64,000 bases of DNA from Paenibacillus durus ATCC 35681 (GTDB taxonomy: Bacteria; Bacillota; Bacilli; Paenibacillales; Paenibacillaceae), in NCBI RefSeq assembly GCF_000993825.1, contig NZ_CP011114.1, positions 5,394,001 to 5,458,000 on the forward strand, in the 5' to 3' direction. Every line of letters starts with the position of its first letter. Positions within the stretch are counted from its first letter, which is position 1. Shown piece by piece: positions 3,423 through 36,156 of this stretch. A model generated the notes under the pieces. It ran no database searches. It was not told where the DNA came from and saw only the letters and a program-made list of their open reading frames with translations. A program made the position numbers and the translations under genes.

Positions 3423-3533
3423 TCTTAAAGAATCGCTGCAAAAGCCGTGAGCAGATGGTAAGATGTGTATTAGCGTCTGGAGCGGGATTATACTCATAGA
3501 CCTTATCTATAACGTTTTTGGGAGATGGAGTAG

Positions 3534-4304: not shown

Positions 4305-4324
4305 CAAGGAGGGAGACGTTAGCC

Positions 4325-5587
4325 ATGAGCAACTTAGAAGAAAGCCGCGACGGCTATGGTATCCGGACTCCTGGCAGCCTGCTGAGAAGGCGGCTTGGGC
4401 ACCACTGGAAAGAACAATGGGGCATCATCCGCACCGCTGCGGACTGGACAGTGTTTCTCTATTTCCTTATCCCGGGCGGGCTGCTTGGCGGAAGATTTTA
4501 TTACGGGTTCTGGAATGAGCCGCTTCCGGCATGGGTTACACTGCTGCCCTATGCTCTCTTGCCGGCGCTGTTGGCCCTTCTGATGCAGGGCGGTATTCTG
4601 CTGCTGCTGCATGAAGGCGACCTGCTGTTCTTACGGCAGCGCAAGAATTGGATACGCACGGTCGTGTCCGGCGGAATTTTGTACAGCCTGTCGGTAACGG
4701 CGCTGAAAATTACAGCAGGCTTTCTGCTTCTGCTGCCTTTTCTTGTTCGCGGCTACGGGCTAAGCGGGACGGACGCGGGAGCGCTGCTTGTTCTGAGTCT
4801 ATGCTGCGGGATATGCGTCAAGCTGCTTACGCATAACGTAAGGGTACAGAAGCAGGGCTGGCGCAGGTGGCTGTGGATGCTGCTCGCCGCATGGCTGCCC
4901 AGCGGGCTCTACATTCGCGCTGCCGTCGCCTGGAGCGCCCATCCGGCGCTGCTGCTGCTTGCCGCCGCCGTCTATGCGGCTGCTGCGGCTGCCGGGCTGC
5001 GGGCAAGGCTGACCTTGCGCGGCACGTTCCTCGGCGATGTGCGCGAGGATTTCAAGCAGCGGATGAAGATCGCCGGACTGCTACTAAGAGGCGTTATCGA
5101 CAAGCCGCGGCCGACCCGGCATAAGCCCTGGATCTTCCGTAAGTCCCGGCCGCTGCTGCGCCCCAGTTCCCCCGAAAGCCGGCTGGCCGGAGCGTCCATT
5201 AAGGCGTTTATACGTAATTCGGGACATTTAAAGCTGTATCTTCAGTTTTTTGGAGTAGGTGCCGTGGCGATTCTGATCGTACCGGGCGTCCTGAAATGGG
5301 CCGTCTGCATTGTGCTGGTCTTCTTGATGGCCTCGTGGCTGGTGTCTTACTGGAAAGTGTTCGCAGGCGATGAATTTATCGCGCTGCTCCCGTTCAGCAA
5401 AGACCGGAAAGCGGACGCGGGGAGTCTGGCGGTTCCGATTCTCCTGCTTCCCTTTTCCATATTGTGCGCGGCAGTCGCCTCAGTGCCGCTGTACGGCTGG
5501 TGGGGGCTTGCGGTATTCATCCCCACCGGCGCGGTGATCGGCATTATGGCTGCCAGAGTGTTTACAGCCTTTCGCCTGGCCGGGTAA
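4325..5587 (+). CDS. ecsB: ABC transporter permease EcsB
   Basis: Membrane subunit of the Ecs transporter, 420 residues, with hydrophobic helices in two clusters (residues about 35-190 and 305-420) separated by a basic cytosolic segment rich in Arg, Lys and Pro (around residues 225-285). I choose the ATG at 4325 because AAGGAGGG precedes it by 11 bases; the ATG at 4301 overlaps the ecsA stop and lacks its own site. The order ecsA-ecsB is that of Bacillus. The unit closes with a bidirectional terminator shared with the convergent flavoprotein gene. Confidence 0.85.
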   Translation: MSNLEESRDGYGIRTPGSLLRRRLGHHWKEQWGIIRTAADWTVFLYFLIPGGLLGGRFYYGFWNEPLPAWVTLLPYALLPALLALLMQGGILLLLHEGDLLFLRQRKNWIRTVVSGGILYSLSVTALKITAGFLLLLPFLVRGYGLSGTDAGALLVLSLCCGICVKLLTHNVRVQKQGWRRWLWMLLAAWLPSGLYIRAAVAWSAHPALLLLAAAVYAAAAAAGLRARLTLRGTFLGDVREDFKQRMKIAGLLLRGVIDKPRPTRHKPWIFRKSRPLLRPSSPESRLAGASIKAFIRNSGHLKLYLQFFGVGAVAILIVPGVLKWAVCIVLVFLMASWLVSYWKVFAGDEFIALLPFSKDRKADAGSLAVPILLLPFSILCAAVASVPLYGWWGLAVFIPTGAVIGIMAARVFTAFRLAG

Positions 5588-5603
5588 ATACGCATAGAAT
5601 CGA

Positions 5604-5647
5604 AAAACCAGCGTGAACGCCGAGGACTCTTCGTTCGCACTGGTTTT
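5604..5647. terminator. Bidirectional terminator, ecsB / flavoprotein
   Basis: AAAACCAG pairs with CTGGTTTT, extended inward by GAACG/CGTTC. T-runs flank the stem on both strands, consistent with its position between convergent genes. Confidence 0.75.
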
Positions 5648-5724
5648 GATTTACGGAAAATGCTGTTTCATTTTTCGTTTGACGGGGTAAGTGGAATTGC
5701 TCTCAGAAATTAGGGAAACCACCT

Positions 5725-6990
5725 TCAGGATTCCTGCTGTGCGGCATGTATTCCGGCCGTATACCCTGTTGAGAAAGCCGCGGTAATATTGTACCCGCCC
5801 GTATATCCGTGTATATCCAAAATTTCACCGCAGAAATACAGACCCGGCATCAGCTTGGATTGCATCGTTCCGGGATCAATTTCTTTTAAATGGACGCCGC
5901 CCCCGGTAACAAAGGCTTCCTCCAGCGGACGGGTGCCGTGGACAAGAATCGGCATGCGCTTTAACAGGGAAGCAAGCGCCGCCTGGGCGCTTTTGGAGAG
6001 ATTGGGGCCTGTAAGGTCGCCGTCGATTCCCGCCTTGGACAGCAAGAGCGGAATGAGCCGTTCCGGCAGCAGCCCTTTCAGCGCGTTGCGGATCGCCTTT
6101 TTCGGCTCTGCCTCCAGCTTGTCCCGAAGCTTCGCTTCCGTCTCATGGAGCCGCAAATCGGGGAAGAGATCAATCGACATCTCCACGGATTCCTTCCCTG
6201 TCTTGCGCTGCACCTGCCGCAGAAACTGGCTGCAGCGCAGCGCAATCGGACCGGACAGCCCGAAATGGGTGAAGATCATATCTCCTCTGTGGGAGATCAG
6301 CGGTTTGCCCCTTTCATTCCAGACGGAGAGCGTTACGTCGCGCAGGGAAAGCCCTTGCAGTTCTCCGGACTTGATCCAACTCTCGCGTGATACAATCGGT
6401 ACTTCCGTCGGGTACAGCTCCGTAATGGTATGCCCCGCAGCCTCCGCCCAGAAAAAACCGTCGCCGGTAGAGCCGGTATGCGGAACCGATTTTCCTCCGG
6501 TCGCGATGACGACCGCCCGGGCTGTCAGCTTCTTGCCGGAAGCCAGCAGAATGCCTTGAACGCGGTCTGGCCCATAGAGCACTTCGCGGACGGGACTGCC
6601 CGTCATGATTTGAACGCCAAGATCTTTGACTTTGCCAATCAGAGCCGAGACGACGCTGGAGGCTTTATCGGAAACAGGGAACATTCGGCCGTTATCTTCT
6701 TCCTTTAATTGTATTCCCAAATCTTCAAAAAAAGCGACAATGGAACGGTTATCGAAATGGCGAAGAGCGCTGTGCAAAAAACGTCCATTGCCCGGAATAT
6801 GAGCAATCAGCTCTGCTGTATCCTTCATATTGGTTACATTGCAGCGGCCACCGCCCGAGATGCCGAGCTTGCGGCCCAGCTTGGTTCCCTTGTCAATTAA
6901 CAGCACGGAGGCTCCGTGCTCGGCTGCGGCTACGCTCGCCATCAGACCGGAAGGTCCGCCGCCGATGACGATGATATCATATTCACTCAT
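5725..6990 (-). CDS. HI0933/YtfP-family FAD-dependent oxidoreductase
   Basis: A 421-residue flavoprotein of the HI0933/BaiN group. The dinucleotide fold GGGPSGLMASVAAAEHG lies at residues 9-25, then GRKLGISGGGRCNVTN, the diagnostic family motif. A mid-domain GGKSVPHTGSTGDGF and the C-terminal GEILDIHGYTGGYN complete the FAD site. The ATG has AAAGGAG 7 bases upstream. The physiological substrate of most members is not established; a role in NAD(P)H-dependent reduction is inferred from fold. It is monocistronic, and its upstream region carries copy A of the dispersed two-hairpin repeat. Confidence 0.88.
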   Translation of the reverse strand: MSEYDIIVIGGGPSGLMASVAAAEHGASVLLIDKGTKLGRKLGISGGGRCNVTNMKDTAELIAHIPGNGRFLHSALRHFDNRSIVAFFEDLGIQLKEEDNGRMFPVSDKASSVVSALIGKVKDLGVQIMTGSPVREVLYGPDRVQGILLASGKKLTARAVVIATGGKSVPHTGSTGDGFFWAEAAGHTITELYPTEVPIVSRESWIKSGELQGLSLRDVTLSVWNERGKPLISHRGDMIFTHFGLSGPIALRCSQFLRQVQRKTGKESVEMSIDLFPDLRLHETEAKLRDKLEAEPKKAIRNALKGLLPERLIPLLLSKAGIDGDLTGPNLSKSAQAALASLLKRMPILVHGTRPLEEAFVTGGGVHLKEIDPGTMQSKLMPGLYFCGEILDIHGYTGGYNITAAFSTGYTAGIHAAQQES

Positions 6991-9634: not shown

Positions 9635-10444
9635 TTGAGCATACAAGAAGAGATTATTGCCGCCCTTGGCGTAAAACCGGCGGTTGATGCAGAAGCGGAA
9701 GTGCGGCAGAGAGCCGATTTTCTGAAAGCGTATATCTTGGAATCGGGAACCAGGGGATTGCTGATCGCTATAAGCGGGGGTATAGAGAGCGCGGTGGCTG
9801 CGGGCCTGTGCAAACGTGCGACAGATGAGCTGAGCGCTGAGCAAGGCAAGGAATATATTACGCTTGGCGTGTTCCAGCCTTACGGGGAGCAAGAGGATTC
9901 CGGGCACAGCTACGAGACGGCCAAAGCGCTCGGGCTTAAGTATACGGTGGAGACGAATATCGGGGATGCGGTTGACGAGATTACGCTGGAAACGGAGTAT
10001 GCTTTGAAGGCTATCGGGCAGCATCGCCATATGACGCATCGAGGCAAGGGAGAGCTCAAAGCGGGAGCGCGGATGGTGATCCAGCATGCGCTCTCCTTGG
10101 AGAACAACCTGCTGGTGGCCGGTACCGGCCATGCATCTGAAGCGATTTCCGGCCGCTGCGCCAAATGGGAAAGCGGAGCCGCTGATCTTGAGCCGCTCCG
10201 TTCCCTGAACCAGCGGCAGGTTCGCGAGCTGGCCTCTTATCTTGGCGTGCCGGCGGGAATCATCACGGCAGCGAAGGCCGCAGACCAGAGGGCGGGACAG
10301 ACAGATGAAGCCAAGCTAGGCAATACTGAAGAAGTAATCAGTGATTATCTGGAAGGGAAACGGGTAGAGCCCGCAGCAGCTGAACTGCTGGAGAGCTTCT
10401 ACCGCAAAGGGTCGTATAAGCGGAGCGCCATTCCCGGAATCTGA
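9635..10444 (+). CDS. NadE-like NAD synthetase with altered catalytic motifs
   Basis: Homologous along its 269 residues to ammonia-dependent NAD+ synthetase, the last step of NAD synthesis. The start MSIQEEIIAALGVKP mirrors the Bacillus NadE N-terminus and fixes the TTG at 9635, although its ribosome site is weak. The PP-loop reads ISGGIESAVA instead of the family SGGxDS: the metal-binding Asp is Glu. The second motif reads GTGHASEAISG instead of GTDHxAEA(V/I)TG, and KWESGAAD replaces K(Y)GDGGAD. The Glu in HASEA and the final Asp are kept. The fold should be intact but normal activity is doubtful. It could be a divergent paralogue of another NadE elsewhere. Confidence 0.75.
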   Translation: MSIQEEIIAALGVKPAVDAEAEVRQRADFLKAYILESGTRGLLIAISGGIESAVAAGLCKRATDELSAEQGKEYITLGVFQPYGEQEDSGHSYETAKALGLKYTVETNIGDAVDEITLETEYALKAIGQHRHMTHRGKGELKAGARMVIQHALSLENNLLVAGTGHASEAISGRCAKWESGAADLEPLRSLNQRQVRELASYLGVPAGIITAAKAADQRAGQTDEAKLGNTEEVISDYLEGKRVEPAAAELLESFYRKGSYKRSAIPGI

Positions 10445-10469
10445 ACCGGCCTCGCGCGATGTTAGCCGC

Positions 10470-10516
10470 ACCGCCGCGGCAGCCCTGCGCTAGATGCGCG
10501 GGCGGCCCGCGGCGGT
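10470..10516. terminator. GC-rich hairpin, possible terminator after nadE-like gene
   Basis: ACCGCCGCGG pairs perfectly with CCGCGGCGGT between convergent genes. Only ATTT follows on the plus strand, so termination efficiency is uncertain. Confidence 0.4.
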
Positions 10517-10541
10517 ATTTGCTCTTTCGGTCACAAGGCCG

Positions 10542-11366
10542 CTAAGAGCGCAGCACCTGGTCGATAAAGGCTTCGGTCGCGGCGATTGCCTGCTCCACTT
10601 GCGGAGTAGGCCCGGCAAACGGATGGACCGTTCCGAAGGTGTGGTCTCCCCCCGGAATCTGAACCCAGTCGATGTCCGGCCTGATGGCGGTCAGCTTCTC
10701 CGAGCCTTGCCGCAGGCGGGCGCCATCCTTGCTTCCCTGAATAAGCGTGACCGGGAATTTGGCCGTCCGCATCCGCTCGATAATATTGTAGCGCTCCTTC
10801 TGCCGCTCCAAATCCTCCAGAATGACGGCGTCCAGCGGCATTTGCTGTCCAGTCCGGCCGTTCAGAACATAGGCGCGGCCTGTTTCGCGCATGTCCTTTT
10901 TCTGCTCCTCCGTGAAGAGATCCAGATCAGTGACGCCGTTCCAGGAAATGACGCCGGCGACTTCGCCGGGTGTATCAAGGGCATGCAGCAGACAGACGCC
11001 TCCGCCCCGGCTGTGCCCGAGAAGGAAGAGCGGCAGTCCGCCGAGCTTGGGATGCTGGCTGAGATAGGAGAGCAGAACATTTAGGTCTTTGAGCTCACGG
11101 TGGTATGTATTGCGGGCGAACTTCTCAAGCTCAGTGAAATTCTGGAGATCCGCGCCGATTCCGCCATGGGAGAAATTGAATGTCACGACCTCATGCTTAC
11201 CGCTTAGCGATTCCGCGACATATGGAAACATTCCCCAATCTTTGAACCCTTTATAACCGTGCGCGATTACGATCAGGCTGTCTGCCTCTCCCCGGGAAGG
11301 GAAGCGGGTGCAGCGCAGAACGGAGTCATCCCCTGCGGGGATTTCAAAATTGATGCTTCGACTCAT
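10542..11366 (-). CDS. Alpha/beta hydrolase
   Basis: A 274-residue cytosolic hydrolase of the serine alpha/beta class. The nucleophile elbow is LLGHSRGGG near residue 110, an acid candidate is in IQGSKDGARL, and the His is in PGGDHTFG near residue 245. An early HGYKGFKDWG supplies the oxyanion-hole HG motif. I start at 11366, where AGAGGAGA lies 10 bases upstream; the frame runs on to 11516 but that extension crosses a hairpin and has no ribosome site. Substrate not predictable. It is divergent from acpS. Confidence 0.82.
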   Translation of the reverse strand: MSRSINFEIPAGDDSVLRCTRFPSRGEADSLIVIAHGYKGFKDWGMFPYVAESLSGKHEVVTFNFSHGGIGADLQNFTELEKFARNTYHRELKDLNVLLSYLSQHPKLGGLPLFLLGHSRGGGVCLLHALDTPGEVAGVISWNGVTDLDLFTEEQKKDMRETGRAYVLNGRTGQQMPLDAVILEDLERQKERYNIIERMRTAKFPVTLIQGSKDGARLRQGSEKLTAIRPDIDWVQIPGGDHTFGTVHPFAGPTPQVEQAIAATEAFIDQVLRS

Positions 11367-11400
11367 CAGAAAATGTCTCCTCTCTGTATGCCAAGGCGGC

Positions 11401-11448
11401 AAGTCCATGGCGGGTGCCGAAGCCGCTGCGGGAGCGGCGCATGGACTT
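11401..11448. promoter_or_regulatory. Stable hairpin between divergent hydrolase and acpS
   Basis: AAGTCCATG pairs with CATGGACTT (9 bp) and an inner GCCGCT pairs with AGCGGC. It lies 35-82 bases upstream of the hydrolase start. A T-rich tract follows on the plus strand, so it may be a terminator remnant or a leader structure; no function assigned. Confidence 0.4.
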
Positions 11449-11555
11449 CGGCGGTGTTTTCTTTTAAGATAGCAGAAAGCTTGCCTCAGCACTATACTAT
11501 CTATATCATTTCCCATATGAATTTACGGAAAAAGAAGAATTGAGGAGCGTGTACC

Positions 11556-11954
11556 TTGATATACGGAATCGGGAATGATGTGCTGGAGATTAACCGGATC
11601 GCCGTTCTGCTGGAAGGGCGGCTCGGCGGCAGGTTTGCGCGCCGCGTCCTGACCGAAGGCGAGCTTTCCGTGGCGCGAAGCCGGGGCGGTCTCACGGCGG
11701 AATATGCCGCCGGAAGGTTTGCGGCCAAGGAGGCCATCGTCAAGGCGTTCGGCTGCGGAATCGGGGCGGCGCTGGGATTTACGGATATAGAAATACTCCC
11801 AGGGAAGCTGGGCCGGCCGGAAGCGGTCATTTCAGGCGAAGCTTGGGCGAGGCTGAATCTGCCGGAAGGATACGATTACATCATTCACCTTACGATCACG
11901 CATACCCGGGATCTGGCATCGGCCTTTGCCGTTGTCGAGCAGCGGGCGCATTAG
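11556..11954 (+). CDS. acpS: Holo-[acyl-carrier-protein] synthase
   Basis: Transfers 4'-phosphopantetheine from CoA to the serine of acyl carrier protein, activating fatty-acid synthesis. 132 residues, slightly longer than the usual ~120. The metal-binding IGNDVLEINRI motif is at residues 4-14 and FAAKEAIVKAFG, with the second metal Glu, is at about 52-63. The TTG start is supported by GAGGAGCG 10 bases upstream. It is followed by the 216-bp foldback element and then mutY, an unusual neighbourhood because acpS often precedes alr in Bacillus. Confidence 0.93.
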   Translation: MIYGIGNDVLEINRIAVLLEGRLGGRFARRVLTEGELSVARSRGGLTAEYAAGRFAAKEAIVKAFGCGIGAALGFTDIEILPGKLGRPEAVISGEAWARLNLPEGYDYIIHLTITHTRDLASAFAVVEQRAH

Positions 11955-11975
11955 CCGGGCAGCGGGTTTTCAACA

Positions 11976-12191
11976 TATATAAGATGAACTTGAAAAATAA
12001 CATCCGGGTAAGGAGTAACGAAGGGGAAGTTTGGAACTGTAGGAGCGATAGCGATCGCCTTTGTCTCCGGATTTCATCCGCGAAGAGCGGTTTTAATTGA
12101 GAAATCTGGGGACAACAGCGGCCGGAAGTCCAAACATTCCTCGTAGTTACGACTGATATCTGATGGGAAAATCTTAAGTTCATTTTATATA
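11976..12191. repeat. Foldback (MITE-like) element with terminal inverted repeats
   Basis: The ends TATATAAGATGAACTT (11976) and AAGTTCATTTTATATA (to 12191) are inverted repeats, 15 of 16 matching. Inside, the strand folds on itself again: GTTTGGA opposite TCCAAAC, GTAAC opposite GTTAC, and TTGTCTCCGGATTTC opposite GAAATCTGGGGACAA. No open frame of note. It fills the gap between acpS and mutY. TA-rich ends would fit a TA-targeting transposase, but they do not match the nearby IS630 ends. Confidence 0.7.
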
Positions 12192-21247: not shown

Positions 21248-21943
21248 TCAGTCTTTAAATTGTGGATATAAGCGTTTCAGTTTGATTCGGGCGTCTTCCG
21301 TGGTGAATTGCCAGTCTACTCCCTTTTGAGACGCATTGCGTCCCGCTTCCCATGCGGTAAGTTCATGGGCCAAATCTTCTAAAGAAGGAATCCGGCGTCC
21401 CAGACACTGGCGGGTCATGACACTGAGTTCGATTTCGGCCACATTAAGCCAACTACCGTGTTTTGGTGTGTAATGGATTTCCAGGCGTTTCGCCAGACGC
21501 AAAGCCACTTCCGGTTCGAATGCCTGGTACAGGGAGGCGATAGAATGCGTGTTCAGGTTATCCATCACGAGGCGCACTTTCGGAGCCTCCGGGTAATGAA
21601 CATCCAACAGATCGCGGACTTGTTCCGCCCATTCCACCCGCGTGCGCTGTGGACGAACACTCACATGTCGCCAGCCCGCAAGTGGTTCCGTAAAAATGAA
21701 AATGCTGCACGTTCCATTGCGCACGTACTCCGCATCTTCTCGCAGCGGTTTAGCGGGTTTCATCGGAATGGGCACCCGGGTTTCATCCAGAAGCTGGTAC
21801 GGTTTTTCGTCCATGCAGATGACGGGACAAGCCGGATCGTAAGGCAGTCGATACACTTCCAATACATCTTCCATGGTGGCAACGAACGCGGCATTTTGCT
21901 TTGGCGGAATGCACCAGCATTTACGAAGATGAGGCTTGAGCTC
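21248..21943 (-). CDS. IS630 transposase, catalytic (DDE) part, orfB
   Basis: About 231 residues of the DDE_3 catalytic domain, readable from 21943 by frame change from orfA (first ATG at 21874). The acidic triad is visible: D in [13 protein letters not shown] in [11 protein letters not shown], and E in [12 protein letters not shown] run of seven adenines (complement of 21945-21951) lies at the overlap and is the likely site of a programmed shift; decay by an indel would look the same. Confidence 0.85.
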
Positions 21944-22388
21944 GTTTTTTTAAAATTTTATCTACCGTGTCATAGGAAAGACTTTCGATGTAGTTCAGTT
22001 CAACGGCTTTGTCGGCCAGCATCCGCAAGGACCAGCGGCTCTTTCCTTCGGGCGGTGGACTGCAACTGAGTGCAATGATTTGGGCTTCCAGTTCGCCTGT
22101 AACTTTGGGAGGATTCGGTGGGGTTAACCGCTTTTTTCGCTCAAGCGTGGCCTGAAGGCCTTGCTCGGCAAACCGTTTTCGAACGAGATGGACCGTGTTG
22201 GTATGCACGTTTGAGCGTTCGGCGATTTCCACATCCGAAAGTTTACCGCCTGGCCGATTTTCATCGGCCCACAGCAGAATTTGGGCTCGCCGCAACGCGC
22301 GCGCCGTCGACTTTCCTTGGCTACACATACGTTTCAGTTCCTCTTGTTGTTCAGCGTTTAGACTTACGATATAGTCTCGTTTTTTCAT
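21921..22388 (-). CDS. IS630 transposase, DNA-binding part, orfA
   Basis: 155 residues with a helix-turn-helix ([21 protein letters not shown] split over residues about 50-70) and a second HTH-like segment before the overlap with orfB. The ORF runs from the right end of the element inward. With the +1 shift at the A-run it would join the DDE domain to give the usual ~380-residue product. Confidence 0.85.
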
Positions 22389-24607: not shown

Positions 24608-26377
24608 ATGACAAATCCTTTGGAAAAGCAGATGATTGCAGAATTTAATGTTCCCGTTGAAATAAGAGATGGAATCGTGTTGCGTGCTAATATTTATCGG
24701 CCCAATCAGGAAGGAAAGTGGCCCGTACTACTCCATCGCCATCCATATAATAAAGATGTCCCCCCCATTTCCTTTGGATTATACGATATTTCTCGTGCAG
24801 TTCGGCAGGGATATGTGGTCATCGTTCAAGATACAAGGGGAAGATGGGCTTCTGAAGGAGAATGGGAGCTTATCTTGACCACTAAACAAGAAGCTTCTGA
24901 TACCTTTGAGACCATCCACTGGGCAAGCACACTACCCTTTAGCAATGGTGAAGTCGGTATGTTTGGCGAGTCCTATTCCGCATTCGTGCAGTGGGCAGGC
25001 ATGCTGCAGAATCCACGGGAACTCAAAGCAGCTACTCCTTCATTTTCTTGGAGTGATCCCTTCGATGGATTAATGTACCGGGGTGGAGCGCTTGAACTCG
25101 GTTTATTGTCCTATTGGCAATTAGGAATGCAACTGGACACGATCTCAAGACTTTATTCGAATGAGCAAGAACGAGCTATTGCCTCGAAGCAGTTAATTTC
25201 AGATATTGATCAACTAAAAACGGAGATTAAAGCACTGCCACTGAAAAATTTTGCGCCTTTTGCCCGAAATAAAGTGGCTCCCTCCACACTTGAACATTTT
25301 GAGCGCGGCATGGATCAAGATTATGTGGATGCGTTATCGTTAAAGGGGAAGTATAACAAGTTCACACTGCCTACACTTAACATTGCCGGGTGGTACGATA
25401 TATTCTTGCAAGGAACCATTGAAAACTTTTTGCAAATGCGTAACAAAGGCGGTAGTTCGGAAGCTCGACAGAGCAAATTAGTCATCGGGCCTTGGCAGCA
25501 TTTGGACCACAGTCATCAAGCTGGCGAAATAAATTTTGGCTTGGCTGCTCATTCCGCTGTTGTGGATTTGGTCGGACTTCAGTTGCGATGGTTTGATCAT
25601 TTCTTAAAAGGAAACGACACCGGTATCTTCAGTGAAGCACCAATTAAGCTATTTGTGATGGGCGAGAATGTTTGGCGCGATGAATATGAATGGCCGCTTG
25701 CTCGGACGAATTTTACTCCGTACTACTTGCATGGCCAAGGACATGCGAATACGCTTCAAGGTGATGGAGTACTTAGCACAATCTCACCAGATCAAGAGGA
25801 ACCCGATCATTATACATATGATCCCTTGAATCCGGTCATCACTAAAGGCGGAGCGATCATGATGCCATCCGATTTTAACAGTGGTGTATTCGATCAGAGA
25901 GAGATTGAGTCACGCGATGACGTATTAGTTTATACAACTCCTGTATTAGAAGAAGACGTAGAAGTGACAGGACCGGTTAAAGTGAAACTGTGGGCAAGTT
26001 CAAGTGCGTTAGATACGGACTTTGTCGCGCGATTGGTAGATGTTCATCCGGGTGGGTATGCACAAAATCTAACCGATGGAATTATACGTGCCCGTTATCG
26101 GAATGCTGCTGAAGGAGTGGCTCCGAGCTTAATCGAGCCTGGAATAGCTTATTTATATGAAATCGATTTATGGTCAACAAGCAATTTATTCAAAAAAGGG
26201 CATCGAATCCGCTTGGATATAACGAGCAGTAATTTCCCGCGTTGGGATCGAAATCCCAACACTGGCAGAAATTTCGGCGAGGATCAGGCTAAGGATGTTG
26301 TGATCGCTCGGCAAACCATTTTTCATGATGCAGAACATCCTTCTTCAATTATTCTGCCAATCATACCAAGAAGCTAA
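24608..26377 (+). CDS. CocE/NonD family (X-Pro dipeptidyl-peptidase-like) hydrolase
   Basis: A 589-residue serine hydrolase. The first domain carries the nucleophile in MFGESYSAFVQW (about residue 122), the acid and base regions in NIAGWYDIF and IGPWQHLDHS, and the jelly-roll C-terminal X-Pro domain begins near residue 420 (DVLVYTTPVLEEDVEVTGPVK divided). Relatives hydrolyse acyl bonds in cocaine, glutaryl-7-ACA, cephalosporins or peptides. Its placement behind a drug-type exporter suggests detoxification of an ester or amide compound; that is inference. AAAAAAGGAGCG precedes the ATG. It closes the AT-rich block with its own terminator. Confidence 0.85.
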   Translation: MTNPLEKQMIAEFNVPVEIRDGIVLRANIYRPNQEGKWPVLLHRHPYNKDVPPISFGLYDISRAVRQGYVVIVQDTRGRWASEGEWELILTTKQEASDTFETIHWASTLPFSNGEVGMFGESYSAFVQWAGMLQNPRELKAATPSFSWSDPFDGLMYRGGALELGLLSYWQLGMQLDTISRLYSNEQERAIASKQLISDIDQLKTEIKALPLKNFAPFARNKVAPSTLEHFERGMDQDYVDALSLKGKYNKFTLPTLNIAGWYDIFLQGTIENFLQMRNKGGSSEARQSKLVIGPWQHLDHSHQAGEINFGLAAHSAVVDLVGLQLRWFDHFLKGNDTGIFSEAPIKLFVMGENVWRDEYEWPLARTNFTPYYLHGQGHANTLQGDGVLSTISPDQEEPDHYTYDPLNPVITKGGAIMMPSDFNSGVFDQREIESRDDVLVYTTPVLEEDVEVTGPVKVKLWASSSALDTDFVARLVDVHPGGYAQNLTDGIIRARYRNAAEGVAPSLIEPGIAYLYEIDLWSTSNLFKKGHRIRLDITSSNFPRWDRNPNTGRNFGEDQAKDVVIARQTIFHDAEHPSSIILPIIPRS

Positions 26378-26379
26378 AG

Positions 26380-26419
26380 AAAGGCGTGGGTCCGAACATC
26401 GGAATCCTGCGCCTTTTTT
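26380..26419 (+). terminator. Terminator after the CocE hydrolase
   Basis: AAAGGCG pairs with CGCCTTT, with inner TCCG/CGGA, followed by TTTTTT. Confidence 0.8.
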
Positions 26420-26550
26420 GTATGCGACGTATTATCTTGGCCCTTGAAACCTGAGTAGCGGAGGATACCGGCCACGACAGTACGATTCAACAGGAGGGGC
26501 TTGCAGCTTGTCTATTCGAAGGGGAAAATGTCTTTTTTCAAAGAAGCGGC

Positions 26551-26579
26551 TAGACAGAAAAAAGTCGAACTGCTATAAT
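26551..26579 (+). promoter_or_regulatory. Promoter of the sulfur/encapsulin locus
   Basis: TAGACA and TATAAT with an exact 17-base spacer. The expected transcription start is near 26586, which rules out the ATG at 26578 as start of the cysteine synthase gene. This is the best promoter match ahead of the locus. Confidence 0.75.
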
Positions 26580-26589
26580 GAAATCAACT

Positions 26590-26614
26590 TATTCCTACAA
26601 TATTGCTCGGAATA
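26590..26614. promoter_or_regulatory. Inverted repeat TATTCC-N13-GGAATA, candidate repressor site
   Basis: A perfect 6+6 inverted repeat immediately downstream of the predicted transcription start, where a bound repressor would block elongation. The GGAAT half-sites recall the cysteine regulator CymR of Bacillota, which would fit the genes, but I cannot confirm the motif. Confidence 0.45.
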
Positions 26615-26676
26615 GTTGGACATGGTGTAGTTGCGGAGAAACTGGCCAAATAGCCAGCAGGTTAGGGGACTTCACA

Positions 26677-27606
26677 TTGGCAAATAACCAATATGGAATT
26701 ATTGAATCTATCGGCAATACACCGCTTATACGTCTTGTGAATGTGACGAAGGATCTGGGGCGAACGGACGTAAGCGTGTATGTGAAGGCCGAGCAGCTTA
26801 ATCCGAGCGGTTCGGTCAAGGACCGCGCCGCAAAGGCCATGATTTTGCAGGGAATCCAGTCGGGGCAATTGACCAAGGAGAAATCCATCATCGACGGGAC
26901 GAGCGGCAATACCGGCATTGCCTACGCAATGATCGGCGCGGCTCTCGGGTACAAAGTGACCCTGTGCCTTCCGGGTAACGCGAATGTCGAACGCAAGCGG
27001 ATTCTGCGGGCTTATCGCGCGGAAATTATCGAGACGGACCCGCTGCAAAGCTCGGATGGCGCGCAGCTTGAAGCCAAGCGGATAGCAGAGCTTGAGGCGG
27101 ACCGGTATTTTTATCCCGATCAATACAATAATGATGCGAACTGGAAAGCGCACTACGAGACGACTGCGCCGGAAATCTGGGAACAGACGGATCATAAGGT
27201 TACTCATTTTATCGCCGGCATGGGCACGTCGGGAACTTTTATCGGAACCTCCAGAAGATTGAAGGAATTGAATCCCGTAATCCAAACCGTAGCGATGCAG
27301 CCGGATTCGCCTCTGCACGGACTAGAGGGAATGAAGCATCTGGCAACGACGCTTAAGCCGGGAATTTACGACCAGACGGTAGCCGACGGGCTGATTGAGG
27401 TTGAAACCGAGGAAGCGTACGCCATGACGCGCAGGCTGGCGCGGGAAGAAGGGCTGCTGGTCGGAATCAGCTCCGGGGCCAATGTGCATGCCGCGCTGAA
27501 GCTGGCTGCGACCGTTCCTCCCGGATCAGTTGTCGTTACCATTTTATGCGACAGCGGGCTTCGATATTTAAGCGACGAGCTGTGGACAAGGGGAGATGCC
27601 ACATGA
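26677..27606 (+). CDS. cysM: CysM/CysK-type cysteine synthase
   Basis: A PLP enzyme of 309 residues that replaces the acetyl or phospho group of an activated serine with sulfide or a thiocarboxylate sulfur. The PLP lysine is in NPSGSVKDRAA (near residue 45), the substrate loop is DGTSGNTGIAYAM, the phosphate-binding loop is AGMGTSGTFIG, and GISSGAN is near the C-terminus. The TTG at 26677 has AGGGGAC 7 bases ahead. Its stop overlaps the start of the JAMM protease, and the pairing of CysM, JAMM protease and a CysO-like carrier mirrors mycobacterial mec-cysO-cysM. So sulfur from a protein thiocarboxylate is the likely co-substrate; O-acetylserine or O-phosphoserine as acceptor is undecided. Confidence 0.87.
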   Translation: MANNQYGIIESIGNTPLIRLVNVTKDLGRTDVSVYVKAEQLNPSGSVKDRAAKAMILQGIQSGQLTKEKSIIDGTSGNTGIAYAMIGAALGYKVTLCLPGNANVERKRILRAYRAEIIETDPLQSSDGAQLEAKRIAELEADRYFYPDQYNNDANWKAHYETTAPEIWEQTDHKVTHFIAGMGTSGTFIGTSRRLKELNPVIQTVAMQPDSPLHGLEGMKHLATTLKPGIYDQTVADGLIEVETEEAYAMTRRLAREEGLLVGISSGANVHAALKLAATVPPGSVVVTILCDSGLRYLSDELWTRGDAT

Positions 27607-28031
27607 TCCATCTGAAGCAGGAGCATATCGGCCAAATCAATAAACACGCCGAGGAGGATTACCCGCACGAGTGCTGCGGTATTGTGTTCGGGAGATTGGG
27701 CGAGGATCAGTCGAAGGTAGTAAGCGAACTGCTTCCGATTTCCAATTCGCGGGAAGAGCAGGCCAGGCATAACCGCTTCCTTATCACCTCGGAGGATATC
27801 ATGAGAAGCGAGTTGTACGCCCGAAAGCATAAGCTGGACGTTCTCGGCTTCTATCACTCGCATCCTGATCATCCCGCTCGTCCCTCCGCGTTCGACTTGG
27901 AGCATGCCTGGCCGACCTACTCCTACCTGATTGTCGCGGTTGCGGGGGGGCGGGCGGGAGAATTGACTTCCTGGGAGCTGAACAGTGACCGTTCCGCGTT
28001 CCATTCTGAAACTATTAATAGGGAGGATTAG
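27603..28031 (+). CDS. JAMM/Mov34 (Mec-like) metalloprotease
   Basis: A 142-residue zinc isopeptidase-fold protease. All JAMM residues are present: Glu in YPHECCGIVFG (near 23) and H-S-H-P with S-x2-D in FYHSHPDHPARPSAFD (near 83-96). Mycobacterial Mec removes cysteine from the C-terminus of the sulfur carrier CysO after CysM has built it there. Here the carrier is the N-terminal domain of the next gene and its Gly-Gly is internal, so this protease may also have to cut the fusion to free the Gly-Gly end. It overlaps cysM (ATGA) and ends five bases before the next start: a tight operon. Confidence 0.88.
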   Translation: MIHLKQEHIGQINKHAEEDYPHECCGIVFGRLGEDQSKVVSELLPISNSREEQARHNRFLITSEDIMRSELYARKHKLDVLGFYHSHPDHPARPSAFDLEHAWPTYSYLIVAVAGGRAGELTSWELNSDRSAFHSETINRED

Positions 28032-28035
28032 CCGT

Positions 28036-29496
28036 ATGACAGTAAGTTTGCTTATTCCTACCGCCCTGCGCTCTTTTACGGACGGTTTGTCGGAAATTGG
28101 CGTGGAGGCGGCCACGGTTGAAGAGGCGCTGGCTGCTCTAACCGAACAATTTGTCGATCTTCGGCGGCATTTGTTTAATGATCAAGGCCAGCTTCGCAGC
28201 TATGTGAATATCTATGTGAATGAAGAGGATATCCGGCAAAAGAACGGTCTGCAGACAGCCTTGTCGGATGGAGACGACGTAATGCTTGTGCCTTCCATTG
28301 CCGGCGGCTCGCCGGCTGAAACGGAAGGAGCCCAGAGCCCGGACCTTGACGGGCTTCCCGAACTGACCAAAGACGAAATTACCCGGTACAGCCGGCATCT
28401 TATTTTGCCGGAGGTTGGCGTGGAAGGGCAGCGCATCCTCAAAAAGAGCCGGGTTCTGCTGATCGGCACCGGAGGGCTGGGCGCGCCGATCGCCATGTAT
28501 TTGGCCGCCGCTGGCGTCGGCACGCTCGGCATTGTCGATTTCGACTTCGTGGATGAGACGAATTTGCAGCGGCAGATTATTCACGGCACGCGCGATATCG
28601 GCAGACCGAAGATCGCGTCCGCAAAGGACCGGATCAAGAGCATTAACCCGAAAGTAAACGTCATTGCCATCGAGCAGAGACTGTCCAGTCAGAACGCCCT
28701 CGACATTATCAAGGATTACGATGTGGTCGTGGATGGAACGGATAATTTCCCGACACGATATTTGGTCAATGACGCCTGCGTTTTATTGGGCAAGCCGAAT
28801 GTGTACGGCTCCGTATTCCGGTTCGAAGGGCAGGTCAGCGTGTTCTATGCGCAGGAAGGAGCCTGTTACCGCTGTCTGTATCCGGAGCCGCCTCCAGCCG
28901 GACTTGTTCCCACTTGCTCGGAAGGCGGGATACTCGGCGTTCTTCCCGGTATCATCGGCTGCATCCAGGCGAATGAAACGATCAAGCTGCTCCTTGGCAA
29001 AGGTGAACCTCTAATCAATCGGCTGCTGCTGTTCGACGCGCTGAAGATGAAGTTTCGGGAGCTTAAGCTCAGCAAGGACACGAACTGCCCCATTTGCGGA
29101 ACGCATCCTACCATTACATCCCCTATTGATTATGAAGAATTTTGCGGTTTGAAGAAGCCTGATGAAGAAGAGCCAATCGAGGAAATTACGGCTGCCGAGC
29201 TGAAAAGACGCTTTGATAACGGGGAAGGGGTGCAAATCCTGGACATCCGGGAGCCTCATGAGCTTGCGATTGGGAAGCTGCCAGGAACGAAAGCCATTCC
29301 TTTCGGCCAGATCGTTCGCCGGAAAGCGGAGCTTGATCCCGAGCGGGATACGATTGTCATATGTAAAATCGGCCAGCGCAGCGTGATGGCGATTCGTACT
29401 TTACGGGATTCCGGCTATACCGGCAAACTGCTGAATTTGAAAGACGGCATGAACGCATGGGCTCAGGAAATAGATCCCCGGATTGCGCAGTACTGA
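28036..29496 (+). CDS. MoaD/CysO-like carrier fused to MoeB-type E1 and rhodanese
   Basis: 486 residues in three parts. Residues 1-91 are a ubiquitin-like MoaD/ThiS/CysO domain ending SIAGG at 90-91. After a ~15-residue acidic linker, residues ~110-350 are an adenylating E1 with GTGGLGAP (144-151), the zinc pairs CYRC and CPIC, and a Cys in VPTCSEGG. Residues ~385-486 are a rhodanese with active-site loop CKIGQRS. Together they can adenylate a Gly-Gly terminus and deliver persulfide sulfur to it as thiocarboxylate, as MoeZ does for CysO. The odd point is that the Gly-Gly is not C-terminal, so the carrier must be released by proteolysis or work differently. AGGGAGG lies 10 bases before the ATG. 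Confidence 0.9.
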   Translation: MTVSLLIPTALRSFTDGLSEIGVEAATVEEALAALTEQFVDLRRHLFNDQGQLRSYVNIYVNEEDIRQKNGLQTALSDGDDVMLVPSIAGGSPAETEGAQSPDLDGLPELTKDEITRYSRHLILPEVGVEGQRILKKSRVLLIGTGGLGAPIAMYLAAAGVGTLGIVDFDFVDETNLQRQIIHGTRDIGRPKIASAKDRIKSINPKVNVIAIEQRLSSQNALDIIKDYDVVVDGTDNFPTRYLVNDACVLLGKPNVYGSVFRFEGQVSVFYAQEGACYRCLYPEPPPAGLVPTCSEGGILGVLPGIIGCIQANETIKLLLGKGEPLINRLLLFDALKMKFRELKLSKDTNCPICGTHPTITSPIDYEEFCGLKKPDEEEPIEEITAAELKRRFDNGEGVQILDIREPHELAIGKLPGTKAIPFGQIVRRKAELDPERDTIVICKIGQRSVMAIRTLRDSGYTGKLLNLKDGMNAWAQEIDPRIAQY

Positions 29497-29528
29497 TGAA
29501 TATCTGACTTATAAAACTCATTATAGTA

Positions 29529-29651
29529 GGCCCATTGCCGAAACAATGCGCTTATGCACGCGAGCATGGAAGGTCGCCGGACCGGTTGGTTAGGCGCGGA
29601 CTTTACCGTATCGCTCTTGAAAGTAAGTACATATCGTTCCGGCGATGGGCC
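29529..29651. repeat. Large foldback upstream of the encapsulin gene
   Basis: Ends GGCCCATTGCCG and CGGCGATGGGCC are inverted (11 of 12 match) 123 bases apart, and pairing continues imperfectly inward (GAGC, AAGTC/GACTT, GCC/GGC). It occupies most of the 200-base gap between the carrier-E1 gene and the encapsulin gene and is followed by a T-rich stretch. It could be a MITE, an attenuator setting shell expression, or an mRNA-stabilising hairpin. Confidence 0.55.
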
Positions 29652-29696
29652 TTATTATATATTTTTCATCATTATATGACTTAAGGGGGATTTACT

Positions 29697-30650
29697 ATGG
29701 CCGAACAAGACAATGGCAATCTGGCCGTACCGGCGCTCGGTTCGTCGGCAGCTTATCAACTGGCAAATGTTACTAAATCTGCACCGCAATTCGATGCCCT
29801 TACACCGCGCTGGATCACAAGGCTGTTCGAATGGAAGGGACTTGAAACCGGGATTTACCGGCTTAACAAAGTGCAGGAAGGCGATACGCCGCTTGATATT
29901 TTGTGCAGCACCGGCGATACGTCGAATATTACCGAAGGCTTTGTCGATTATAGTACAAGCCCGCGCGAATACGTGCTGAATTCCATTTCGACGATTATAA
30001 ACGTCAATACCCGCGTATCGGACATATACAGCAGCCCCTTCAACCAGATTCAGGAACAATTACGACTTGCCATTGAGAGCATCAAGGAAAGGCAGGAAAG
30101 CCAGCTCATCAACAGCGATGATTACGGTCTTTTGAAAAATGCGGCGCCTTCCCAGCGCATCCAGACACGCAACGGTGCGCCGACGCCGGATGATCTGGAC
30201 GAATTGATCTCCAAGGTATGGAAAGAGCCTTCCTATTTCCTGGCTCACCCTCGGGCTATCGCGGCCATCGGCCGGGAATGCACAAGACGCGGCGTTCCGC
30301 CGCAAACGGTGCAGATCTTTGGTTCGCATTTTTTAACCTGGAGAGGCATCCCTATTATTCCTACGGACAAGCTGTTCGTCGACGGTCATAAGAACCCGAA
30401 AGGCCAGGCGGGCAAAACGAATATTCTGCTGGTTCGCACCGGAGAAAATAAGCAGGGCGTTCTCGGCTTATACCAAACCGGTCTTCCGGGCGAGCAGTCA
30501 CGCGGGCTTTCGGTCCGGTTTACGGGCATCGACAAGCAGGGCATCGGCTCGTATCTCCTCTCCTTGTACTGCTCCGTTGCGATTCTTGCGGATGACGCGG
30601 TAGGGGTACTGGAAGATGTGGATGTAGGTAACTACTATGACTACGAATAG
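29697..30650 (+). CDS. srpI: Family 2A encapsulin shell protein (SrpI-like)
   Basis: A 317-residue HK97-fold protein that self-assembles into an icosahedral compartment. Family-specific stretches are clear: LANVTKSAPQFDALTPRW at the N-terminus, FVDYSTSPREYVLNSIST, TRVSDIYSSPFNQIQEQLR, ESIKERQESQLIN, GAPTPDDLDELISKVWKEP, FLAHPRAIAAIGRECTRRG and the C-terminal VLEDVDVG. These are the hallmarks of SrpI, the family 2A shell known from cyanobacteria. There is no cyclic-nucleotide-binding insert, which separates it from family 2B. Ribosome site AAGGGGG. The cargo gene starts inside its last codons. Known 2A shells enclose a cysteine desulfurase, and that gene is next. Confidence 0.95.
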   Translation: MAEQDNGNLAVPALGSSAAYQLANVTKSAPQFDALTPRWITRLFEWKGLETGIYRLNKVQEGDTPLDILCSTGDTSNITEGFVDYSTSPREYVLNSISTIINVNTRVSDIYSSPFNQIQEQLRLAIESIKERQESQLINSDDYGLLKNAAPSQRIQTRNGAPTPDDLDELISKVWKEPSYFLAHPRAIAAIGRECTRRGVPPQTVQIFGSHFLTWRGIPIIPTDKLFVDGHKNPKGQAGKTNILLVRTGENKQGVLGLYQTGLPGEQSRGLSVRFTGIDKQGIGSYLLSLYCSVAILADDAVGVLEDVDVGNYYDYE

Positions 30651-32223
30651 CAACCATCCATCCCTTCCGGACCCATCCGTCCTGGCGGCGCTGGCGAGTG
30701 CATACTTTCCGGAATTTTCATCCGGGGAAGCGGCTGAAGCCGCTTCCGCCGCTCCGGAATTTGCACCGTCTGTCCAGAATACGGTTCCTTCGTCTCCAGC
30801 CTTTGCTCCGTCCGTACAGGAGATTTCTCCTGCGGCGCAATCGTACAATGGATTATGGACCGAAGCGGACTTTCTGCGGGCGATTCCCGGTGCGTTTGAG
30901 TCGGACAGTGAAAGGACAAGCTCTTTGCCGGGCAGCTATGCTCCGTCGGTTGAGTTCTTGCCCAGCAGCCATGCTCCGTCCGCCGTTTCAGCTCCTTCGC
31001 TATCCTTCGGGTCGTTTGATGTAAACGCGGTTAGGAATGATTTTCCGATTCTGGCGGAGAAGGTGAATGGCAAAAATCTGGTGTGGCTGGACAATGCCGC
31101 GACGACCCACAAGCCCCGGCAGGTTATCGAGCGGATCAAGTACTATTATGAGCATGAAAATTCCAATATTCACCGGGCCGCTCACGAGTTGGCGGCGCGC
31201 TCTACGGACGCTTACGAGGCCGCCCGCGAGAAGGCGGCCCGGTTTCTGAACGCTCCTTCGGCGCAGGAAATCGTGTTCGTCCGGGGAGCGACGGAGGGAA
31301 TCAATCTGGTCGCAAGCAGCTACGTCAGACATCATTTGCAGAAAGACGATGAGATTCTCATTACGTGGCTTGAGCATCACGCCAACATCGTACCCTGGCA
31401 ATTGGTCTGCGAGGAGACCGGGGCGAAGCTCCGTGTCGCTCCTGTCGATGAGAGCGGACAAATTCTGCTGGACGAATATGCAAAGCTGCTGAGTTCCCGG
31501 ACGAAGTTCGTCTCTCTGACCCATGTATCCAACGCGCTTGGTACGGTTACTCCGGTAGCGGAGATGGTCAGTCTGGCCCACCGCTATGGCGCCAAAGTGC
31601 TGGTTGACGGTGCGCAAGCCGTCTCCCACTTGAAAGTGGACGTTCAGGCGCTCGATGCCGATTTTTACGTGTTCTCGGGTCATAAAGTATTTGGTCCCAC
31701 GGGAATCGGCGTACTTTACGGCAAACCCGAAGCGCTCGAAGCCATGCGTCCCTACCAGGGCGGAGGCAATATGATCGTGGATGTAACGTTCGAGAAGACT
31801 ATTGTTCACCCGGCCCCGGCCCGTTTTGAAGCGGGAACCGGAAATATTGCGGATGCGGTCGGGCTTGGCGCGGCGCTGGATTACGTCTCCTCGATCGGTC
31901 TGGATGTTATTAACCGCTATGAGCATTTCCTGCTGGAGTACGGCATAGAATCGCTTTCCCGCGTCCCTGGGCTTCGGCTCATCGGCACGGCAAAGGAAAA
32001 AGCGGGCGTCCTGTCCTTCGTTCTCTCAGGGTTTACGACAGAAGAGGTCGGCAAGGCCCTTAGCAATGAAGGGATCGCCGTTCGTTCGGGTCATCACTGC
32101 GCCCAGCCGATTCTCCGCAGATTCGGGCTTGAGAGCGCGGTAAGACCATCGCTGGCACTCTATAACACCTGCGGGGAAATTGATGCCTTGACTTCTGTGC
32201 TGTTGAAGTTGAAGCATAGCTGA
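30637..32223 (+). CDS. Cysteine desulfurase with disordered cargo-loading N-terminus
   Basis: A 528-residue PLP enzyme releasing sulfur from cysteine as a protein persulfide. Residues ~127-528 are a SufS-type (group II) desulfurase: PLP Lys350 in VFSGHKVFG and persulfide Cys488 in VRSGHHCAQP. Residues 1-125 are Ala/Ser/Pro-rich and predicted disordered, with a repeated short motif: FAPSVQ at 42 and 56, YAPSVE at 101 and HAPSAV at 112. In characterised 2A systems such an extension loads the enzyme into the shell, so this is the cargo. The ATG overlaps the encapsulin gene by 14 bases in another frame, tying shell and cargo synthesis together. Confidence 0.94.
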   Translation: MTTNSNHPSLPDPSVLAALASAYFPEFSSGEAAEAASAAPEFAPSVQNTVPSSPAFAPSVQEISPAAQSYNGLWTEADFLRAIPGAFESDSERTSSLPGSYAPSVEFLPSSHAPSAVSAPSLSFGSFDVNAVRNDFPILAEKVNGKNLVWLDNAATTHKPRQVIERIKYYYEHENSNIHRAAHELAARSTDAYEAAREKAARFLNAPSAQEIVFVRGATEGINLVASSYVRHHLQKDDEILITWLEHHANIVPWQLVCEETGAKLRVAPVDESGQILLDEYAKLLSSRTKFVSLTHVSNALGTVTPVAEMVSLAHRYGAKVLVDGAQAVSHLKVDVQALDADFYVFSGHKVFGPTGIGVLYGKPEALEAMRPYQGGGNMIVDVTFEKTIVHPAPARFEAGTGNIADAVGLGAALDYVSSIGLDVINRYEHFLLEYGIESLSRVPGLRLIGTAKEKAGVLSFVLSGFTTEEVGKALSNEGIAVRSGHHCAQPILRRFGLESAVRPSLALYNTCGEIDALTSVLLKLKHS

Positions 32224-32317
32224 AGTGTACCGGGAACGGCGGACAGGCCGCAGTCCATTCCTTATCATTTCCGGCGCCGGACGATGTCGTTGAAGCAGGG
32301 GTAAAGGAGGGTGAGTC

Positions 32318-33262
32318 TTGAGCAGTATTAATGACAACCGAATGAACCGTCTCGTTGCGGAGATTGCGGCCAGCTACCGGGAACAGCCGATTAATCCTTT
32401 GCTGGATTATTCGCTTCTTCCAAGCCGCAAGCTGGTTATTGAGAGCATACATTTGGTTTGGGAATTGCTGTTCCCCGGTTATTTCGGCAAGCAGGACTTG
32501 AATGACGAGACATTGGAGTATCATATTGGCTCTGTTCTCATACAGATTCAGGAGAAGCTGACAGACCAGATTGGACGCTCTCTGCTGTACCGCAGGGGCC
32601 AGGATTCCCATTCCTCCCAAGAGGTAAGACCGGAGGCGGAGGAAATCATTCATCAATTTTTGGCGGAAATTCCCCGGATACGAAGTGTGCTCGCCACCGA
32701 TGCCCAGATCGCTTTCGACGGAGATCCGGCGGCCAATGATTTGAGCGAGATCATTTTCTCCTATCCCGGCTTATTCGCGGTAGGGATCTACCGTATGGCC
32801 CATGAACTGGAAGTGCTGTCTGTCCCGCTTATTCCGCGAATTATGACCGAATATGCGCACAGCGTCACAGGTATTGATATCCATCCGGGGGCGAAGATCG
32901 GCAGTTCCTTCTTTATCGACCATGGTACCGGGGTGGTAATCGGGGAAACGACGGTGATCGGTAATCGGGTGAAGATTTACCACGGGGTGACGCTGGGAGC
33001 CTTATCGCTCCGGGAGGGTCATTCGATGTATGGGAAAAAGCGCCATCCGACGCTTGAGGATGATGTGACGGTATATTCCGGCGCATCCATTCTGGGCGGG
33101 GATACCGTCATCGGCAAAGGAGTCGTGATCGGCAGCAATGTTTCCATCTTCAAGTCCGTGCCCGCCGGGGCGAAAGTGACCGTAAAGAACCCGGAACTGA
33201 TTATCAAAGGCCAGGCGCCGCAAGAGTTCCCGCAGGAATTCATCTGGGATTGGGTAATTTGA
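32318..33262 (+). CDS. epsC: Serine O-acetyltransferase, EpsC type
   Basis: Makes O-acetylserine, the carbon acceptor for cysteine synthase. 314 residues. An N-terminal helical region (1-180) precedes a left-handed beta-helix of hexapeptide repeats (GIDIHPGAKIG, HGTGVVIGETTVIGN, YHGVTLGALS, GASILGGDTVIG), with catalytic His in the GTGVVIGET neighbourhood. The long N-terminus and SREGHSMYG-like segment (LREGHSMYGKKRHPTLED) mark the EpsC branch. The TTG is preceded by AAAGGAGGGTGAG. It closes the locus, linking serine activation to the encapsulated desulfurase and CysM. Confidence 0.93.
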   Translation: MSSINDNRMNRLVAEIAASYREQPINPLLDYSLLPSRKLVIESIHLVWELLFPGYFGKQDLNDETLEYHIGSVLIQIQEKLTDQIGRSLLYRRGQDSHSSQEVRPEAEEIIHQFLAEIPRIRSVLATDAQIAFDGDPAANDLSEIIFSYPGLFAVGIYRMAHELEVLSVPLIPRIMTEYAHSVTGIDIHPGAKIGSSFFIDHGTGVVIGETTVIGNRVKIYHGVTLGALSLREGHSMYGKKRHPTLEDDVTVYSGASILGGDTVIGKGVVIGSNVSIFKSVPAGAKVTVKNPELIIKGQAPQEFPQEFIWDWVI

Positions 33263-33276
33263 AGCCCTGCATTAAA

Positions 33277-33320
33277 AAACGAACCCAACGCCACTAATAC
33301 AGTGGGGTATGGGTTCGTTT
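33277..33320. terminator. Bidirectional terminator, epsC / acnA
   Basis: AAACGAACCCA pairs perfectly with TGGGTTCGTTT. T-runs follow on both strands (stronger on minus, TTTTTT), matching the convergent arrangement. Confidence 0.85.
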
Positions 33321-33358
33321 ATATTTCTCACGGGATATACCCCGCGCCGTTCCTTACA

Positions 33359-36097
<2,739 letters not shown>

Positions 36098-36156
36098 GAA
36101 TGTGCCTCCTTGTTTCATCTGTTGAAACTCCATTTCATATTCGACTCTGTCTATTA

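Follow-up and report, generated by a model that had tools for sequence, protein, structure and literature searches.

How could sulfur that is set down inside a family 2A encapsulin be drawn out again, and why does the gene for such a shell stand in one row with genes that build cysteine on a small carrier protein? Both questions are raised by six genes of Paenibacillus durus ATCC 35681, which lie in a 64,000-nucleotide stretch of DNA (contig NZ_CP011114.1, positions 5,394,001 to 5,458,000 of the forward strand), called the window below and numbered from its own first letter. The genes run head to tail on the + strand at 26677-33262, at the place given by the sequence-only reading, which had been made from the letters without database searches, and all six product identities that it had assigned are borne out by Pfam and NCBIfam searches. 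The six genes form a real unit, every part of which is related to sulfur and which has been spread or kept across phyla. The reading that we favour, and to which we give an even chance, takes the row as one sulfur-banking unit, in which an encapsulated desulfurase deposits the sulfur of cysteine and a rhodanese-E1 protein, a carrier, a JAMM protease and CysM return cysteine.

The first gene (26677-27606, TTG start) encodes a cysM-like cysteine synthase, a CysM-type pyridoxal phosphate enzyme (PF00291) with a GSVKDR motif, which among solved structures is closest to O-acetylserine sulfhydrylase B and to cysteine synthases. It overlaps by 4 bases the gene of a JAMM (Mec-like) metalloprotease (27603-28031; PF14464), which has the HSHPDHPARPSAFD motif and 2kcq as its closest solved chain. 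After 4 more bases comes the gene of a 486-residue fusion (28036-29496), which joins a MoaD/CysO-like carrier (PF02597), an E1 enzyme of MoeB/MoeZ type (PF00899) and a rhodanese (PF00581); the carrier domain (28036-28308) ends in an internal IAGG (28297-28308), and the rhodanese domain (29188-29466) has a CKIGQRS loop. A gap of about 200 bases (29497-29696) separates the E1 gene from that of a SrpI-like family 2A encapsulin shell (29697-30650), which overlaps by 14 bases the gene of the family 2A cargo cysteine desulfurase (30637-32223), an enzyme of SufS type with RSGHHCA and SGHK motifs. The last gene (32318-33262, TTG start) begins 94 bases after that of the desulfurase and encodes a serine O-acetyltransferase of CysE/EpsC type, whose matches to TIGR01172 and NF041874 lie below the curated cut-offs. 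A start of the cysM-like gene at ATG 26578, as proposed before, is unlikely: the stretch between this codon and TTG 26677 has a one-base gap in the relative L056, so the N-terminal extension was set aside and TTG 26677 is the more likely start.

The neighbourhood is conserved outside this strain, a point on which the sequence-only reading had made its proposal depend. The gene order recurs in several families and three phyla, one of which (Acidobacteriota, L015) is known solely from a contig of a metagenome-assembled genome (MAG); misbinning of this contig is possible, as L016 and L017 belong to the same sample series and are also the loci with which it groups by shell and by E1. The E1-rhodanese gene stands directly before the shell gene, on the same strand, in 18 of the 30 family 2A loci read, called linked loci below, and is missing from this place in the other 12, a share that is not an unbiased rate, since fifteen of the thirty loci were found by similarity to the window's own shell. 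Not counted among the thirty are L007, L019 and L009-L012, which duplicate L056, L055 and L083-L086, further short loci at shells already included, the weak L058 (23 bits), and two loci, L073 and L074, that were taken for family 2B from their 475-485-residue frames alone. By taxon sample the linked share is 6/6 in the window's order, 2/5 in the class of G112 (391 genomes, with two further matches in 475-485-residue frames taken for family 2B) and 1/2 in the order of G110 (198 genomes).

Besides the window, the linked loci comprise five from its genus (L052-L056), L008 (Paenibacillus plantiphilus), L068 (taken as P. beijingensis), four Clostridia MAG loci (L013, L014, L020 and L021, three of them labelled Oscillospiraceae), three Family XIII MAG loci (L016-L018), L015, L069 (genome G738) and L077, on a plasmid of Aliarcobacter cibarius. 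JAMM is present in all 18 and cysM in 17 (not in L069). In 12/18 the row goes on, on the same strand, with the serine acetyltransferase gene, which in L014 and L021 lies nearby on the other strand; it was not found in L018 and L020, and contig ends cut it off in L013 and L055. Two rows carry other genes as well: L077 has IS110 and IS5 family transposase genes within the row (2517-6979), the second of which breaks the E1 gene, and in L018 the desulfurase gene is directly followed (10400-12148) by that of a large FAD flavoprotein, which is fumarate/APS-reductase-like and far below cut-offs.

Shell and close E1 also occur together at the level of genomes. Within the genus, the shell is found in 6 of 100 genomes, and the same six have an E1 of at least 97% identity, the next best E1 reaching 295 bits (42%). 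Across the order, a shell that passes the cut-off occurs in 6 of 392 genomes (one more has a weak match of 23 bits), and the same six have an E1 of at least 738 bits, the next best reaching 351 bits when the best four candidates per genome are scored. Five of the six shell-bearing genomes belong to one genus, so this co-occurrence stands for few independent events. Placed on the shell tree, the linked label takes 3 changes, compared with a mean of 9.7 for shuffled labels (0/500 as low), and the distances of E1 and shell among 10 non-redundant linked loci are correlated (Mantel r 0.595; 2/5000 permutations as high); kinship among the rows makes both figures look better than independent data would.

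One Paenibacillus shell locus was found without E1, that of Paenibacillus sinopodophylli (G101, L083), which has shell, desulfurase and acetyltransferase and no close E1 (best 154 bits). About 500 bases before its shell there are fragments that match the cysM of L068 (E 3e-12) and its E1 end with the spacer (E 4e-11), and that match the window itself more weakly (E 1e-4). We read this as the probable scar of a deletion that removed the carrier genes and left promoter and shell in place, so the shell half can apparently persist without the carrier half.

The shell (317 amino acids) scores 510 bits against NF041162, the curated family 2A model, which has a cut-off of 380. PF19307 is the sole domain found in it, and it has no cyclic-nucleotide-binding domain, which is the marker of family 2B; against the 2B model NF041163 it scores 392 bits, just below the cut-off of 400. 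Its closest solved relatives are 8t6r (410 bits) and SrpI 6x8m (409 bits), and it is 99% identical to the shell of P. rhizophilus. The cargo desulfurase, whose gene adjoins that of the shell, scores 834 bits against NF041166 (cut-off 800); a phage-capsid reading of the shell was rejected, as the cut-offs for 2A shell and 2A cargo are both passed. The N-terminal extension of the desulfurase (30637-31014) is about 126 residues long, the best solved match beginning at residue 126. By eye it is of low complexity and holds LASAYFPEF and FAPSV-like repeats, with YFPEF at 30703-30717. From the account of family 2A cargo loading in PMC8346489, the extension is the likely loading region and would bring the desulfurase into the shell. 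A YFPEF-type stretch occurs in 14 of the 17 linked desulfurases read and is absent in L069, L016 and L017, the last two having short extensions. The active-site cysteine and lysine are kept in 17/17 linked loci, and in L055 the contig ends inside the gene.

Over its first 91 residues the fusion matches the CysO-type chain 3dwg_C, which is CysO in complex with CysM. The E1 part scores 512 bits against the MoeB model (equivalog cut-off 633) and 478 bits against the MoeZ model (cut-off 647), and it is above a MoeB subfamily cut-off (312.5 versus 266). The IAGG is invariant in 59/59 aligned fusions, where the poorly conserved linker behind it has 12 to 50 residues (median 21), and further residues follow the IAGG in 117/117 fusions among the best 120 of 7999 homologues scored. 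Even where the carrier has its own gene, as in five linked loci (L015-L018, L077) and in the Planctomycetaceae contig L100, at least one residue stands past the Gly-Gly. In 19/19 loci read, the carrier chain thus runs on past the Gly-Gly and lacks the Gly-Gly terminus of CysO. Active-site motifs are kept where they are readable: HxHx7SxxD of JAMM in 18/18 linked loci, the CysM lysine in the 17/17 with cysM and the rhodanese CKxGxRS in 17/18 (C-termini read by eye), the broken gene of L077 being unreadable.

Since the thiocarboxylate of CysO is formed on its last glycine (PMC3227635) and the Gly-Gly is internal in all of these loci, cutting of the carrier is likely needed. The carrier could act like CysO only after a cut, and JAMM probably makes it behind the internal Gly-Gly. 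JAB/JAMM as the cutter of ThiS/MoaD fusions is an idea already raised in PMC1779556. P0020, a metagenomic protein of 626 residues that is unnamed in its source, holds JAMM, MoaD, E1 and rhodanese in one chain. JAMM would in this way gain a plausible second job, the making of the carrier from its precursor.

From the known activities of these families, the deposit would consist in the conversion of cysteine to alanine by the cargo desulfurase, which would leave sulfane sulfur in the shell. For the withdrawal, the rhodanese domain may take up this sulfur as a persulfide, the E1 domain would adenylate the terminal glycine of the carrier and make the thiocarboxylate, CysM would join the thiocarboxylate to O-acetylserine supplied by the EpsC-type enzyme, and JAMM would free cysteine from the carrier. 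Loading, storage, transfer and direction of flow, that is, the reversible cysteine-sulfur buffer, are what we infer from the genes. A more specific form of the sulfur bank, which is tentative and somewhat less probable than the banking unit as such, has a virus-derived shell act together with a ubiquitin-like carrier as one reversible bank: the encapsulated desulfurase would lay down cysteine sulfur as a protected solid, and the carrier, released by JAMM from its own E1, would withdraw this sulfur atom by atom as cysteine. If the proposal is true, it supplies both an exit route from family 2A sulfur stores, which PMC8346489 and PMC8049743 leave unexplained, and a sulfur source for CysO-type carriers, that of the mycobacterial CysO pathway having been unknown in 2011 (PMC3227635). 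The operon offers a candidate answer to both questions in one clonable piece of DNA.

The neighbours of the unit in G738 (L069, class Clostridia) bear on the choice between this proposal and others. There, one strand carries cysW, cysA, an AprA-like gene, ferredoxin, cysD, cysN, JAMM, MoaD-E1-rhodanese, shell and desulfurase, and then serine acetyltransferase, O-acetylhomoserine/O-acetylserine sulfhydrylase, a sulfite-reductase-like gene, a thioredoxin-like open reading frame (by eye), a second ThiF and a second JAB. By position, this gene order places shell and carrier in sulfate assimilation, and it also feeds the main rival of a store with its own withdrawal route, namely overflow storage beside ordinary assimilation. 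In the overflow case, which is unlikely, the carrier arm would build cysteine on sulfur freshly assimilated from sulfate, sulfite or thiosulfate, shell and desulfurase would serve only to store the surplus, and the rhodanese would never draw on the shell. The sulfate and sulfite genes of G738 fit this, as does a sulfate transporter gene just upstream on the Aliarcobacter plasmid; MoeZ-type enzymes also have thiosulfate sulfurtransferase activity in vitro, although PMC3227635 holds that thiosulfate is most likely not the physiological donor. Overflow gives no reason, however, for the strict co-occurrence of shell and close E1, and the neighbouring reading frames of the window are by eye not sulfate genes, which counts for little as the flanks of most other linked loci are unannotated. 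A relay without storage, in which the shell does no more than shield the persulfide of the desulfurase, this persulfide goes straight to rhodanese-E1, and the carrier thiocarboxylate is used for some other thiolation, is distinctly improbable. Restriction of the desulfurase to one rhodanese partner has been proposed for family 2A (PMC8346489), but CysM and the serine acetyltransferase gene in the row point to cysteine as the product, and the Acinetobacter family 2A shell is the subject of a paper by Benisch and others (2024) that is titled as storing elemental sulfur, as cited in PMC10960027 and PMC11946847. That two unrelated sulfur modules lie side by side by chance is very improbable and already disfavoured: each has been described or seen without the other, but the same order in distant groups, the co-occurrence, the L083 scar and the matching trees speak against it. 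It is scarcely credible that E1 and JAMM are the core of an anti-phage system or of ubiquitin-like protein conjugation, to which their weak matches to anti-phage models (best 66 and 40 bits) might point. The E1, with its far higher score against the MoeB model, carries a rhodanese, and the other genes of the row encode the shell and cysteine/sulfur enzymes; this reading was rejected on the scores and because Pfam finds no E2 domain in the six proteins.

The sulfur bank is favoured on account of the gene identities, the 18/30 linkage, the co-occurrence in 392 genomes, the L083 scar, the G738 row and the correlated distances of E1 and shell, together with the internal IAGG, the one-chain P0020 and the active-site motifs. 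Several points weigh against it. A cycle from cysteine sulfur back to cysteine is costly unless deposit takes place at another time than withdrawal. The shell does not depend on the proposed withdrawal route, for it often stands without carrier genes next to it: this is so in 12 of the 30 loci, and of the five plasmid loci opened (from 32 plasmid records) four, in Azospirillum, Synechococcus, Methylosinus and Variovorax, lack carrier, E1 and JAMM in the vicinity. G765, G660, G956 and G651 have shell and desulfurase with no E1 alongside; at E 1e-40 these four genomes gave a single E1 at another place, a more distant one in G651 (241 bits). Of three Planctomycetaceae genomes, one has no close E1, and the other two carry one (71-72%) on a contig other than that of the shell, with no shell after it; upstream of the shell, two of the three shell contigs run for less than 1 kb. 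Fusions of this kind are widespread: they account for 117 of the best 120 homologues, most of them seen without gene context, so the fusion probably also works without a shell. The host genome has four more cysteine-synthase-like genes (41-44% identity), and four Clostridia MAG loci (L013, L014, L020, L021) have a second promoter, TTGCAT-17-TATAAT, before the shell. One of the four additional cysteine-synthase-like genes has an internal TGA in the matched stretch.

The good promoter that the sequence-only reading had seen before the row stands. It is of sigma-70 type (26551-26579, + strand), TAGACA-17-TATAAT with TG before the -10, matches the consensus at 11 of 12 positions and is present in 6/6 shell-bearing genomes of the genus. 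It is the sole match above 9/12 in 25500-34500, where 7 matches were found compared with 6.6 expected. Just upstream, a hairpin that has a U run (z -4.5 for the fold of 26378-26430) separates the row from the preceding gene. Just 3' of the -10 lies an operator-like imperfect inverted repeat, ATTCC...GGAAT (26591-26613, + strand). A CymR-like regulon was tried for this repeat and rejected, as the pattern search in the own genome gave 11 matches compared with 9 for the reversed control. The searchable parts of PMC2869319, PMC3828012 and PMC3519770 give no consensus letters.

The gap between E1 and shell has no promoter match in the window and folds into a long hairpin (29522-29659, + strand; z -5.7 relative to 100 shuffles). 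The hairpin is found in 6/6 genomes of the genus (z -2.0 to -5.7), which share its base stem, while the inner part varies in length. A dispersed repeat was considered and dropped, the hairpin being single-copy in this genome; an Rfam search of leader and hairpin found no known RNA family at the gathering score. It is a possible attenuator or mRNA stabiliser. The form of the second promoter of the four Clostridia loci occurs in 11 to 25 of 5000 shuffles of their gaps. CATAYTA follows both promoters there, though the motif by itself is not rare, occurring in 179 to 616 of 5000 shuffles. The single regulation assumed before thus stands in part: the window has no promoter at this place, although it has the conserved hairpin, and the four Clostridia loci have a separate shell promoter. 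That second promoter and the hairpin of the window speak against a single transcription unit; in the window the row is likely co-transcribed, with the shell level probably tuned apart.

Behind the row, the strong terminator previously proposed is a strong hairpin indeed (33277-33320, z -5.8). Its six-T run, however, belongs to the minus strand (where z is -4.4), and it is probably a bidirectional terminator that also serves the convergent gene 33359-36133. Elsewhere in the window, 63624-63707 matches the Rfam family rli38 (50.3, gathering score 49), and the minus strand of 21921-22388 holds a transposase-like reading frame, of IS630 type by eye only.

Each half of the row is known, and the joining of a family 2A shell with a carrier operon is new to searchable text, which is short of proof that it is unpublished. 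No paper that joins encapsulin with MoaD or thiocarboxylate was found in the main texts searched. Family 2A shells with desulfurase are described in PMC8346489, where serine O-acetyltransferases and rhodaneses are the most enriched accessories. On plasmid pANL of Synechococcus elongatus, SrpI/CyD resembles the window in that shell, N-terminally extended desulfurase, EpsC, cysteine synthase and rhodanese stand in one row, and shell and cargo rise in sulfate starvation (PMC8049743). It differs in that the rhodanese is a separate small protein and the cysteine synthase is annotated as CysK, and neither the annotation nor tblastn gives a carrier, E1 or JAMM within 7 kb of the shell.

The four parts of the carrier half, ThiS/MoaD, E1-rhodanese, JAB and cysteine synthase, stand side by side in the operons of row 4c of Iyer, Burroughs and Aravind (2006), for which the searched text describes no desulfurase or shell (the main text of PMC1779556 has 0 occurrences of 'cysteine desulfurase'). 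Like G738, the operons of row 4e in the same paper bring MoaD, JAB and E1 together with sulfate genes and O-acetylhomoserine sulfhydrylase; their E1 is reported always to lack a rhodanese, whereas that of G738 has a rhodanese and stands with shell and cargo. The mycobacterial CysO-CysM-Mec-MoeZ pathway shares with the window a CysO-related carrier, an E1-rhodanese, a JAMM protease and a cysteine synthase. In mycobacteria the carrier is separate, with the thiocarboxylate on its last glycine, and CysM uses O-phosphoserine (PMC3227635), whereas the window encodes a serine acetyltransferase, has the Gly-Gly inside the chain, and carries desulfurase and shell in the same row.

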